Assembly (NCBI RefSeq): GCF_964020005.1
Contig: NZ_OZ026474.1
Coordinates: 124,001 to 188,000, forward strand
DNA length: 64,000 bases
Reading direction: 5' to 3'
DNA from: Spiroplasma endosymbiont of Atherix ibis
Lineage (GTDB): Bacteria; Bacillota_I; Bacilli_A; Mycoplasmatales; Mycoplasmataceae
Shown: positions 12,455 through 41,966 of the stretch, piece by piece
How the letters are laid out: every line of letters starts with the position of its first letter
Position numbering within the stretch: the stretch's first letter is position 1
Notes under the pieces: generated by a model
The model's database searches: none
What the model was told of the DNA's origin: nothing
The model's input: only the letters and a program-made list of their open reading frames with translations
Made by a program: the position numbers and the translations under genes

Positions 12455-15052
12455 ATGAATATAACTGAAAATAAAAATGAGTCATCAGACTCCAAGTTTG
12501 AAACTTTATCTTTAAATGAAGAGTGATATAAACTTTCTAATAAAAAAATATGCAATATTTTAGAAGTTAATCCTGAAACTGGATTAAGTAATAAAGAAGC
12601 TAAAAATAGATTAGAAAAATATGGTCGAAATATTCTTCCAAAAACTAAAAAAACCAATTGATTTAAAAATTTTTTATTGAGCTTTTTAGACCCATTAAGT
12701 TTAATTATGATTTTATCTGGTTTAGTTTCTGGATTGGTTTCTATTATTTCACAAAAAATTGGAGTAGTTGATATAACTGGTTTAGTTATTATTATAATTA
12801 TAGTTTTAACTAATTCTATTATTGCAACTATTCAATAAGTTAAATCATTGAATCAAGTAGCAAATTTAAATGAAAATAAACAAATAGCCATTATTTTAAG
12901 AAATTCAAAAAAAATTGAAGTAGATATTGAAGAATTAGTTCCAGGTGACATAATATTTGTAAACTCTGGAGGTTTTGTTCCTGCAGATACAAGAATTTTA
13001 GATAATCAATTATTAAAAATTGATGAATCTGCTTTAACTGGAGAAAATGAACCTGTTAAAAAAATTTCTAACTCTATTAAACAAAAGAATTTAATGTTGG
13101 GAGATCAAAAAAATATTGCATTTATGTCTACATTAGTTATTGAAGGAAAAATGATGGGTGTTATTTTTGGAACAGGTAAAGATTCTGAAATTGGTAAAAT
13201 TGCTACAAAAATTACAGGTCACAAAGCTGAAAAAACTCCACTTGAAAGAAAAGTTACTCGTTTAACAACAATAATAGGTTTAACATCAATAGTTTTAGGA
13301 GTTATATTATTCTTAACTTCTTATTTTTTATCAAATAAAATTAATGAAGTAGAACCAGGTAAAGTTGATATCAAAAATCTTCTTCTTATTGCAGTTTCTT
13401 CTGCTATTTCTTTAATTTCTGAATCACTAACTATTATTGTTAAAATTTGTTTAATGGTAGCTACAAAAAAATGGCAAGAAAAAATGTTATTATTAAAAAT
13501 CCAAAATCAATTGAAACACTTGGGAATGTTAATGTTATTTGTTCAGATAAAACAGGAACATTAACACAAAATAAAATGACAGTAGATAGAATCTTTTTGG
13601 ATTTTATAGAAGAAGATTATAATAAATTTGATAAAACAAAGTATAATGATTTAATTAATTGCATTACTTTATGTAGTGATGCAATTGTTGAAAAAGAAAA
13701 AATTGGTAGTGCTACTGAAATTGCAACTATTGATTTTGTTAAAAAATTTGATATTAATTATAAATTAATTAGGAAAAGTAACTCCTTTAAAATAAGAGGA
13801 TAAAGCAAAAGTCAATGAACAATTGTATAGTTTTGCTAAAAGAGGTTTAAGAGTTTTAGGTTTTTCTCAAAAAGATATAACTGAAGAAAAACAACGTTAT
13901 GAAAATAATTTAACTTTATTAGGGTGTGTGGCAATTATAGATACACCAAGAAAAGAAGTTAAAACATCAATTGAAGAGGCAAAATCTGGAGGAATTCGTG
14001 TAATTATGATTACAGGAGATCATAAAATTACTGCTTTTGAAATTGCTTCTAGATTAGGAATAGTAGATGAGAATTTTGATGGTGTTTTAACAGGTCAAGA
14101 TATTAATGAATTATCTAATGAACAATTAAAAGAAAGACTTAAAAGAACAAATGTTTTTGCAAGAGTTAATCCAGAACATAAAGCTCTTATTGTTGATTTA
14201 CTTCAAGAAGATAATAATATTGTTGCTATGACTGGGGATGGATTAAATGATTCACCAAGCTTGGTAAAAGCAGATGTTGGTATTTCTATGGGAATAACAG
14301 GTACTGAAGTTGCAAAAGGGGTAAGTGATGTTATACTTGCAGATGATAATTTTAAAAGTATTGTTTCTGGTGTTAATTCAGGGAGAAATTTCTATGAGAA
14401 AATTAAGTATTCCATTTCCTTTTTAATTGCCGCAAATATAAGTCAAGTTTTAACTTTATTATTAATATTGGCAATTAATCAAGATATAGCTCTAAATTCA
14501 GTAAATATATTATTCCACATATTTATTATTGAAACAATTGTTGCTGTTCCAATTGGAATGCAAAAAGAAAGAAGAGGTGTTATGAAAAATCCACCTCCAA
14601 CACATAAAAAAGAAAGTTTATTAAAAGGAATAAGAAGTCAAATTATTATAACTACTTTATTTGCTGTATTAAATTATGAAATAGCAGTTTGATGATTTAA
14701 AGAAGATATTCAAGCTGCAGCAAAATTTGGTAAAACTGGAGTTTATATGGCAATTATGTTTTCTCCAATATTCTATTCAATTCTTTATAATAACTTATTC
14801 TTGCCTATTAAATCAACAAGACAAAATAAAGAAGTGAACAAGTATAGGCCAAACAAATGATTGCTAATATTGATGATTGTAGCATTTATTTTTACTACAT
14901 TAACTTTAATTCCAGTTGATAAAGTTAATATGTTTTTTGACTTTACAACTGTAGGATTAAATCCCTGATTAGCATTAATATTCTTTATTAACTAATTGTT
15001 ACCAACAGTATTTATTTATGGTACTTATAAATTATTACTTAAATTAATTTAA
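12455..15052 (+). pseudogene. Decayed P-type cation-transporting ATPase (P2, Ca2+-ATPase-like)
   Basis: The remains of a P-type ATPase of about 900 residues. It keeps the N-terminal cation-ATPase region, the TGEN actuator loop, the phosphorylation motif [13 protein letters not shown] and the hinge TGDGLNDSPSL. There are four lesions. An in-frame TAA falls at 12836-12838, where relatives would read on into VKSLNQ. One base is lost in the A7 run at 13465-13471, because the DKTGT part is in another frame. A deletion near 13795-13810 removes most of the nucleotide-binding domain and returns to the first frame. A second TAA falls at 14993-14995, 19 codons before the natural end at 15052. It cannot make an active pump. 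Confidence 0.9.
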
Positions 15053-39039: not shown

Positions 39040-39063
39040 CACCCTTAATAGGGGTGTTTTTTT
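39040..39063 (+). terminator. Rho-independent terminator after tRNA-Ile
   Basis: CACCC (39040-39044) pairs with GGGTG (39052-39056), followed by seven T. Confidence 0.8.
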
Positions 39064-39076
39064 ATTTTTATATATA

Positions 39077-39248
39077 TATAATAAAATAGTTTAGAAATGA
39101 GGTGGTAAATATGAGTATTCCTTCCGTCGAAAATTTAAATATTTTAATAAAAGAAAATACGGTAAGAAGTATTGCTAATTTACCACCTATTTTTGTGTTG
39201 TCTAAATAGGTTTTTAAATTAGCTTTCATAAATAAGGAGAACGATGTT
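39077..39248 (+). promoter_or_regulatory. mgtA leader: promoter, leader RBS and long hairpin
   Basis: TATAAT (39077-39082) is followed by a leader of about 160 bases. AGGTGGTAAAT (39100-39110), which is the RBS of a 32-codon ORF, is perfectly complementary over 11 bases to ATTTACCACCT (39178-39188) near the end of that ORF. A smaller CCGT/ACGG pairing can form inside. The mgtA RBS AAGGAGA (39234-39240) lies 40-50 bases further on. The whole looks like a translational switch. That Mg2+ is the signal is inferred from the gene it precedes. Confidence 0.6.
39111..39209 (+). CDS. 32-codon leader ORF upstream of mgtA
   Basis: ATG 39111 with GAGGTGG upstream gives an uninterrupted 32-codon frame ending in TAG 39207-39209. 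The peptide contains Pro4 and a Pro-Pro pair at residues 25-26 (NLPPIF). Those two Pro codons, CCA CCT, form the 3' arm of the hairpin that covers the ORF's own RBS. The known MgtL leader peptide of Salmonella, also upstream of an MgtA, senses via proline codons. There is no sequence likeness between the two that I can see. The ORF is real on sequence grounds; its role is inferred. Confidence 0.6.
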   Translation: MSIPSVENLNILIKENTVRSIANLPPIFVLSK

Positions 39249-41966
39249 ATGAAAACTAATAAAAAAAAGTTAAACAATAATTATAATAATCAAATAGCAG
39301 AGTTTGTAAATTTAGATCAAGCTCAAACATTAAAAAAATTAGAAGTTTCAAGTTTTGGGCTATCAGATACAGAAGTTGAAATTCAAAAAAATAAATTTGG
39401 AAATAATAGTTTAAAAGAAAAAAAATTTAATTACTTAATATCATTTGTTAAATCATTTTTTAGTCCTTTTAATTTAATATTGATAGTGATTGATATTTTT
39501 AGTTTTTATCGATATGCATTAGCAAAAGATGAGTCTGGTAATCGTTCATTAGAACCATCAGATTTAGTTGGAGCATTACTTGTTTTAATTATGATTATAA
39601 TTAGTGGAACAATTTATTTTGTTCAAGAAATTAGATCATTTCATGTTATTAAAAAAATGACATATGAAAATAAGCATACATCAAAAGTAATTAGAAATAT
39701 TGATTTTGAAGTTAAAGATATTGATAATGCAAATTCAATTAAATTAATTAAAGAACATGAAAAAATTGAAAATTCTGAACTTGTTCCAGGAGATTTAATT
39801 TATGTTTCAAATGGGGATTTGATTCCAGCAGATGTAAAAGTTATTTGATCCAATAACTTATATTTAAATCAATCTTCTTTAACAGGAGAATCATTTCCTG
39901 TTCAAAAGAAAATAACAAATGAAAAAGAAAGTTATTTAGAATATCAAAATATTTGTTATATGGGAACAGAAGTAGTTTCTGGTTCTGCATTATGTTTAGT
40001 AACTCAAACAGGACAAAAAACTTATTTTTCTGCAATTAATGATAAAGTTACAGAGAAAAGAGCAAAAAACTCTTTTGAAAAAGGAGTTACAAGAATTACA
40101 TTATTATTAATTTCATTTATGTTAGCAGTAACACCAATTGTTTTTTTAGTTTTTGGTCTAAGACCAGGAGAAATTGATAATAGATGATTTGCAGCTGCAA
40201 TGTTTGCAATTTCAATTGCTGTTGGATTAACTCCAGAAATGTTACCAGTAATAGTTACTGCAAATCTTTCTAGAGGTTATTCAAAAATTAAAAAAGAAAA
40301 TGTTATTGTAAAAAATTTAAATGCTGTTCAAAATATGGGAGCAATTGATATTTTATGTACAGATAAAACAGGAACAATAACAAGTGGAGAAATTAATTTA
40401 GATCATGTATTTGATATTAAAAGTCAAAAAAATGAAATGATAGAACATATTTTATATTTAAATAGTTATTTCCAATCAGGATTTCAAAATCCAATTGACC
40501 AAGCTGTATTGCTTAGCAAAAAAATAAGTGCACCAAATATTGATGAATATTCAAAAGAGTGAGAAATTCCTTTTGATTTTCAAAGAAAAATATTATCAGT
40601 AATTTTAACTAAAAATGACGAAAAAGAAATTTTTACAAAAGGTGCAATTGAAGAAGTATTAAAAGTGTGTAACCGTATTTATATTAATGGTGATATTGTA
40701 AAAATTACTCAAGAGAATATTAATAAAATAATTAAAAAAGTTGATGAGTATAATAATGATGGATTTAGAGTTATAGGAATAGCTCACAATCATTTAGAAG
40801 ATGAAGATGTCGAAGAAGATTTGGTATTTTATGGGTTTGGTACATTTTTTGATCAACCAAAAAAAACATCAAAAAAAATTATTAAAGAATTAGCTCAAAA
40901 AGGAATAGCAACAAAAGTTCTTACAGGAGATAATGAAGTTATTACAAGAGCTATTTGTGGAAAAGTAGATTTTAAAATTGAAAAACTTTATACTGGAAAA
41001 GAAATTGAGGAAATGAATGAAGATCAATTAAACAAAGCAGTTCATAGAGGAAATGTATTTGTTAAATTAAGTCCAATTCATAAGTCAACAATAATTAGAG
41101 TTTTAAAACAACAAGGACATGTTGTTGGATTTATGGGTGATGGAATTAATGATGCACCAGTTTTAAGAGAATCTGATGTTGCAATATCTTTTGATGAAGC
41201 ATCAAATATTGCAAAAGAAGCAGCAGATATTATTTTAATGGAAGAATCACTATTACCAATTAGTCATGCAGTTCATGAAGGAAGAGTATCATTAGCAAAT
41301 ATTTTAAAATATATTAAAGTTACAATTGCTTCAAATTTTGGAAATGTTTTAAGTGTTCTTGTTGCGTTATTTTTAACAATGGCAGAACCAATGCAGCCAT
41401 TACATTTACTTACACAAAATTTATTATATGATATAGTAATGTTTGCATTTATCTTTGATAAAGTTGATAAAAACTTTACAGATAAACCAAGACCATTAAG
41501 AACAAAAAATATTATATGATTTACAGTTATAAATGGTCCAGTTAGTTCAATATTTGATATTTCAACTTTCTTAGTATTATTATATGGATATCATATTGTT
41601 CAACCAGGAATTGGTTCAGGAGTTGGTAAACCTGATGCTGCTTCATTAGCTGTATTTAATGGTAGTTGATTTGTTGTAGCATTGATTACTCAAACTGCAG
41701 TAATGCAAATGTATAGAACTGAAAAAATCCCATTTATTCAATCAAATGGTTCATGACAAGTATCTGTGTCAACGGTATTTGTTTGTGCAATGGCTGTAAT
41801 AGTTCCTTACGGATTTATGAGCATACCTACTGTTAGAGAAGGTATGGGAATGGGTATTCCACCATTAACATTTTTACCAATTGCATTATCATTTGTAGTT
41901 GCATATATGTGTTTAGCACAAGCAGTTAAAATGTTATATATAAGAATTTTCAAAGAGTGATTATAA
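39249..41966 (+). CDS. mgtA: Magnesium-translocating P-type ATPase MgtA (P3B)
   Basis: Imports Mg2+ using ATP. The product is 905 residues from ATG 39249 behind AAGGAGA; an out-of-frame ATG at 39244 is too near the RBS. It shows the cation-ATPase N domain, the actuator loop TGESFPV, the membrane segment AVGLTPEMLPVIVTANLSRG typical of MgtA/MgtB, the phosphorylated Asp372 in CTDKTGTITSGE, and the hinge MGDGINDAPVLRESDVAIS. In contrast to the dead P-type ATPase near 13 kb, it has no lesion. It is preceded by a structured leader with a short ORF. Confidence 0.95.

Follow-up and report, generated by a model that had tools for sequence, protein, structure and literature searches.

The magnesium transporter gene mgtA of a Spiroplasma-like genome of 1.07 Mb that uses genetic code 4 is probably controlled by a leader-peptide translational attenuator that shares its design with those of erm resistance genes and most likely responds to Mg2+. 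In the window analyzed here (the whole stretch of 64,000 nt), mgtA begins 39 nt past the stop codon of a 32-codon leader ORF (Table 1), and its product scores 844 bits against TIGR01524, the Mg2+ P-type ATPase model (cutoff 611). The leader ORF, whose translation is MSIPSVENLNILIKENTVRSIANLPPIFVLSK, is present at 39111-39209, where the original prediction had placed it, and an intrinsic terminator sets the mgtA transcript apart from the tRNA cluster and tRNA-Ile unit upstream. A second P-type ATPase gene at 12548-14677 (+ strand; G000:C1:136548-138677) looks broken, with its matches split by an in-frame TAA; the corresponding frame is open in relatives such as G014 and G008.

Conservation of the leader ORF and its early codons

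The mgtA gene was found in all 20 genomes of the genus and in 58 of the 60 genomes of the family (E <= 1e-150). By our own count from the listed upstream sequences, 48 of these 58 genomes have an ORF with a strong Shine-Dalgarno (SD) sequence ahead of their best mgtA copy, which bears out the conservation in relatives that had been proposed as a check. A recognizable leader is missing at the remaining 10 best copies, nine of which belong to genus g8. Most g8 genomes (L071-L073, L075, L076, L078-L080, L087) are without the leader and share a block, GATTTAGGAATTTTATTACTTTAA, upstream of mgtA that can be read as (M)DLGILLL-stop and is complementary to a downstream TCCTAAA; this block may be a very short leader of another kind. 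Further mgtA copies of g8 (L086, L103, L104) are preceded by a leader of 43-44 codons containing UCC codons (MLGQQEQSG.., MESRLECPISG..).

Among the leaders, 26 begin with MSIPS or a one-residue variant (MSLPS, MAIPS), and other genera have different Pro/Ser-rich starts, such as MSPLSSFNDEVP, MASSPLPASDSPES and MTNAITPEPEPGE. A DNA pattern for the leader start matched 16 genomes, once in each and always immediately before mgtA; the reversed control pattern gave 0 matches. Insertions and deletions within the ORF among relatives are multiples of three, and we infer from this conservation that the leader is translated. In 42 of 50 leaders the ATG follows an exact TATAAT at a distance of 30-40 nt, which makes transcription of the entire device probable. 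With this hexamer at 39077-39082 in the window, the transcript is predicted to start near 39089-39090, ahead of the leader SD, and a start downstream of 39110, the circumstance named as adverse to the original prediction, is unlikely.

Table 1. Features of the mgtA leader region in the window (positions are those of the window; features of the switch are predicted)
Feature	Position	Strand	Basis or remark
Intrinsic terminator of the upstream tRNA-Ile unit	39040..39063	+	Stem 39040-39056, then T run
TATAAT, probable -10 box	39077..39082	+	Exact match
Leader SD, GAGGTGG	39099..39105	+	GAGGTGG/GAGGTGA kept in most leaders
Arm 1, over leader SD; partner 39178-39188	39100..39110	+	Pairing, shuffles, clade alignment
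Leader ORF, 32 codons + TAG, N-terminus MSIPS	39111..39209	+	ORF list; conservation in relatives
Leader codon 5, UCC, proposed pause site	39123..39125	+	Rare codon for Ser; the same in 26/26 MSIPS-type leaders
2:3 (ON) helix, 5' side, GCTAATTTACCACCT	39174..39188	+	Folding, arm swaps, clade alignment
Arm 2, partner of arm 1	39178..39188	+	Pairing, shuffles, clade alignment
2:3 (ON) helix, 3' side, AGGTTTTTAAATTAGC	39208..39223	+	Folding, arm swaps, clade alignment
Arm 3 as used in 3:4 (OFF); 39218-39223 common to the 2:3 helix	39218..39231	+	Folding, clade alignment
mgtA SD, AAGGAGA	39234..39240	+	Sequence
Arm 4, mgtA AUG region; partner 39218-39231; SD left in loop	39247..39260	+	Folding, clade alignment
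mgtA, magnesium-translocating P-type ATPase, 905 aa (code 4)	39249..41966	+	TIGR01524

Leader residues 2-13 are enriched in Pro (9.9% versus 2.5%) and Ser (18.5% versus 6.9%), and show no enrichment of acidic residues (D+E, 12% versus 10.8%). Within the MSIPS-type starts the codon for Pro4 varies, whereas Ser5 is encoded by UCC in every case, a codon that makes up 2% of Ser codons in the window, as judged from its long ORFs. With related sequences counted together, UCC accounts for 48 of 60 TCN codons at leader codons 2-17 and for 1 of 42 further on (p 2e-16, uncorrected for kinship), and a UCC or CCC codon is a near-constant feature of the Mollicute leaders. The 29 tRNA genes found include only one tRNA for the UCN box (anticodon UGA) and only one for Pro (UGG), and U34 tRNAs of this type read all four codons of a box. 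One tRNA elsewhere (L223:1498-1573), called as SeC with anticodon TCA and adjoining tRNA-Trp(CCA), most likely represents the tRNA-Trp that reads UGA in code 4. Pairing between UCC and the mgtA SD was considered as a cause of the codon's conservation and dropped, since no consistent pairing partner for UCC was found there or elsewhere; nucleotide conservation of MSIPS could, in part, stem from pairing inside the hairpin described below.

Competing helices in the leader RNA

The perfect 11-bp hairpin described in the original prediction is present: AGGTGGTAAAT (39100-39110), over the leader SD, is exactly complementary to ATTTACCACCT (39178-39188), late in the ORF. This helix (1:2) is only one of three that compete. 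The region of arm 2 also pairs with a segment past the leader stop codon (arm 3), which in turn pairs with the mgtA start site (arm 4); neither pairing figured in that prediction, and the decisive element is the second, through which arm 3 would close the start site of mgtA. The same plan is common to the divergent leaders that were folded: the region around the leader SD forms arm 1, arm 2 lies toward the end of the ORF, arm 3 comes just past the leader stop codon and the SD/AUG region of mgtA provides arm 4. In folding, the free RNA adopts 1:2 together with 3:4, and arms 2 and 3 on their own pair with each other; in these modelled folds, 1:2 plus 3:4 shuts both start sites and 2:3 frees that of mgtA.

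In the window, when the downstream segment was dinucleotide-shuffled 200 times, no shuffle matched the real sequence in strength of pairing with the leader SD region (z -4.6), and across 42 leaders the mean z against such shuffles was -2.64 for 1:2, -2.55 for the fold of the 2-3 segment and -1.41 for 3:4. Among the nine genomes of the window's clade, all 11 pairs of 1:2 are kept in every genome (99 of 99 cells) despite changes at five positions of the 3' arm, with all variation one-sided (G-C/G-U or U-A/U-G); 2:3 has two pairs with two-sided changes, and 3:4 is nearly invariant. Distant leaders, with arms unrelated in sequence, supply most of the evidence for co-variation. In 27 divergent leaders, cognate arms paired more strongly than arms swapped between leaders for each helix (1:2, -13.6 versus -10.2 kcal/mol; 2:3, -14.5 versus -8.2; 3:4, -9.3 versus -7.4), with permutation p <= 0.0001 for each, and <= 0.001 in a subset of 18 leaders. 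For example, the spacer between the leader SD and ATG, which may be TAAAT, TATT or TTAT, has its counterpart in arm 2.

To follow the modelled switch, we used as read-out the energy needed to open the whole mgtA start region. The mean unpaired probability of the mgtA SD was discarded as too blunt, having hardly moved in the window's clade because the SD there sits in the loop of 3:4. In 35 of 42 leaders the modelled opening cost dropped by over 1 kcal/mol once a ribosome covered codons up to about 5-8, and in 27 family leaders covering early codons reduced the mean from 8.8 to 4.4 kcal/mol. With shuffled spacers the cost instead rose from 5.6 to 6.4 kcal/mol, a drop of -0.75 compared with 4.4 in the real leaders, and a positive mean drop occurred in 0 of 20 shuffle sets.

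For the window itself the model gives opening costs of 10.1 kcal/mol for the free RNA, 6.3 when a ribosome is stalled and 7.2 when one has reached the stop codon; the last two differ by only 0.9 kcal/mol, which counts against the switch. In addition, 2:3 and 3:4 overlap in the window only at 39218-39223, such that 2:3 would displace no more than five pairs of 3:4, the outer ones, and this partial overlap in the predicted folds is a weakness of the model. Leaders of the distant families f3 and f7 were examined and left out of the support for the switch, with the opening test opposite in sign in four of five cases. Those of f7 (L109, L110, L112, L119) encode MKKPDGERSY.., MDIPSYERSY.. or MELPSCERYS.. 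and have GAGCG..GCTCTCC..GGAG complementarity; with the modelled opening mixed or opposite in sign, their logic may differ.

Proposed mechanism and its signal

Our model is as follows. The mRNA probably starts just upstream of a strong SD and bears the short ORF. With no ribosome on the leader, or with one running through to the stop codon, the start of mgtA would be shut by 3:4. If a ribosome is held or lost at the first codons, it would cover arm 1 and never reach arm 2, allowing 2:3 to form and expose the mgtA start. At low Mg2+, ribosomes are proposed to stall or drop off at the Pro/Ser-rich N-terminus with its UCC or CCC codon, readable only by a U34 tRNA, and more of the pump would be made; at high Mg2+ they would pass through and mgtA would be off. 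That Mg2+ is the signal we infer from the nature of the mgtA gene, from the absence of the M-box Mg2+ riboswitch in the family and from its presence in a sister family. How Mg2+ might be sensed is more tentative: decoding of UCC or CCC by the single U34 tRNA may be especially dependent on Mg2+, a hypothesis that would make the ribosome the sensor and the device a family-wide replacement of the M-box, and to which we give less than even weight.

The pause on which the original prediction relied lay elsewhere, at the Pro-Pro pair of codons 25-26, where a slowed ribosome would keep arm 2 open and thereby gate the leader's own SD. Pro-Pro does occur within arm 2 in the window and in several close relatives. 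Other relatives, however, have Pro-Ser, Pro-Leu or Ser-Leu at these codons and retain the pairing, the conserved part of the peptide is the N-terminus, and a pause at this site leaves 2:3 and 3:4 out of account, which together render this version highly improbable. The Pro codons at this site look like a by-product of complementarity to the SD. That the RNA binds an ion or other ligand directly, with the ORF incidental, is also very unlikely. Its alternative structures are indeed strong and conserved, but primary-sequence conservation centers on the SD, start codon and first codons while the arms vary freely, the ORF changes length in multiples of three, and the SD and ORF are retained in every leader type. 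Moreover, the leader is below the threshold of every Rfam family, and its matches at a relaxed E-value all lie far below the gathering scores.

The architecture resembles that of attenuators generally, and MgtL acts through transcription termination with Rho (PMC11282234), so the alternative folds might be thought to govern termination ahead of mgtA. There is almost no likelihood of this, however, given that 3:4 lacks a U-tract and encloses the mgtA start, that no intrinsic terminator occurs on the + strand in 39100-39249, and that no Rho was found in the genus (best match 53 bits, cutoff 509). With neither Rho nor a terminator, the sequence favors the translational, Rho-independent route suggested originally for a translated leader gating mgtA. 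A closer competitor keeps the same four-arm attenuator and changes its signal to charging of tRNA-Ser or tRNA-Pro, or to slow translation generally, with UCC/CCC as the hungry codon. An invariant rare UCC and a single decoding tRNA are what this reading would expect. Against it, the leader-start pattern is found only before mgtA, the device sits where the sister family has an Mg2+ riboswitch, and most species have one such codon per leader, whereas classic attenuators have runs of them. We regard a tRNA-charging signal as unlikely and favor the attenuator tuned to Mg2+.

Relation to known leaders and riboswitches

ErmCL/ermC is a translational attenuator of the erm type. As in this type, also represented by ErmBL/ermB (PMC11264731), the mgtA leader has its own SD and precedes the regulated gene, mutually exclusive hairpins (1:2 and 3:4 versus 2:3, with only partial overlap in the window) share an arm, and the main start is closed in the OFF state. 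A stalled leader ribosome is likewise the trigger in the model, with UCC/CCC as the candidate stall codon. The devices differ in that the regulated gene encodes a housekeeping Mg2+ pump and does not confer resistance, no drug is involved, and arm 1 also shuts the leader's own SD. Like MgtL of Salmonella and E. coli, the leader is a short ORF directly upstream of mgtA, its translation suggested by conservation, with Pro in the early N-terminal segment. In MgtL, ribosomes drop off at an EPDP motif at low Mg2+, preventing Rho-dependent termination, and in both cases early ribosome loss or pausing in the leader would raise mgtA expression (PMC11282234). Unlike in MgtL, the output here is likely mgtA translation initiation and not Rho-dependent transcription termination, and the Mollicute peptides lack the acidic enrichment, have a near-constant UCC/CCC codon and bear no recognizable sequence relation to MgtL, as had been noted at the outset. 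As modelled, the device thus works like both systems and fails one defining feature of MgtL, the Rho output. Neither the run of codons for one amino acid nor the intrinsic terminator of trp- and his-type attenuators was found. Acidic or Pro-rich leader ORFs like MgtL also precede mgtA in Xenorhabdus (MDDIPPPTLNEMLPME) and Yersinia (MDPVPSICTRWVPPVR) (L172, L131).

The covariance model of the M-box (ykoK, RF00380) had no match in the window's leader, and none was found in the 60 genomes of the family (Infernal, stricter filters). In the sister family f5, four genomes have an M-box of 109-134 bits before mgtA. This element occupies the same position in Spiroplasma platyhelix and its relatives; unlike the leader described here, it is a direct Mg2+ aptamer without a peptide. 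M-boxes upstream of mgtA in this group were seen at L098, L099, L101, L102, L164 and L176, the last two by eye only.

The original prediction envisaged a switch of one code-4 bacterium; the leader itself stood up to analysis, whereas the restriction to a single organism did not, since the leader extends across the family and has analogues in other Bacillota. A search of contigs by MgtA alignment mainly retrieved distant bacteria; the few Mollicutes included Spiroplasma platyhelix and Mesoplasma seiffertii. Leader ORFs with a start rich in D/E/S/G/P precede mgtA in several Clostridia and in a Lactobacillales MAG. Those of Niameybacter, Thermoanaerobacter, Clostridium and Romboutsia likewise have a strong SD and 19-60 codons, and several pair the SD with the end of the ORF (in Niameybacter with z -6.5); their peptides are unrelated, and the likeness covers the SD, the ORF and this pairing.

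We found no prior report of an mgtA leader device in Mollicutes in the open-access literature, subscription papers being outside the search. The findings provide a concrete, conserved model for control of the Mg2+ importer in bacteria with very few transcription factors, and the compact four-arm RNAs offer material for cell-free tests of leader-peptide sensing. They also suggest that mgtA leader ORFs, known from enterobacteria, are common in Bacillota. Finally, the device appears to stand in for the Mg2+ riboswitch of the neighboring Spiroplasma family, suggesting that a ribosome-based sensor replaced a classic ion riboswitch within one order.
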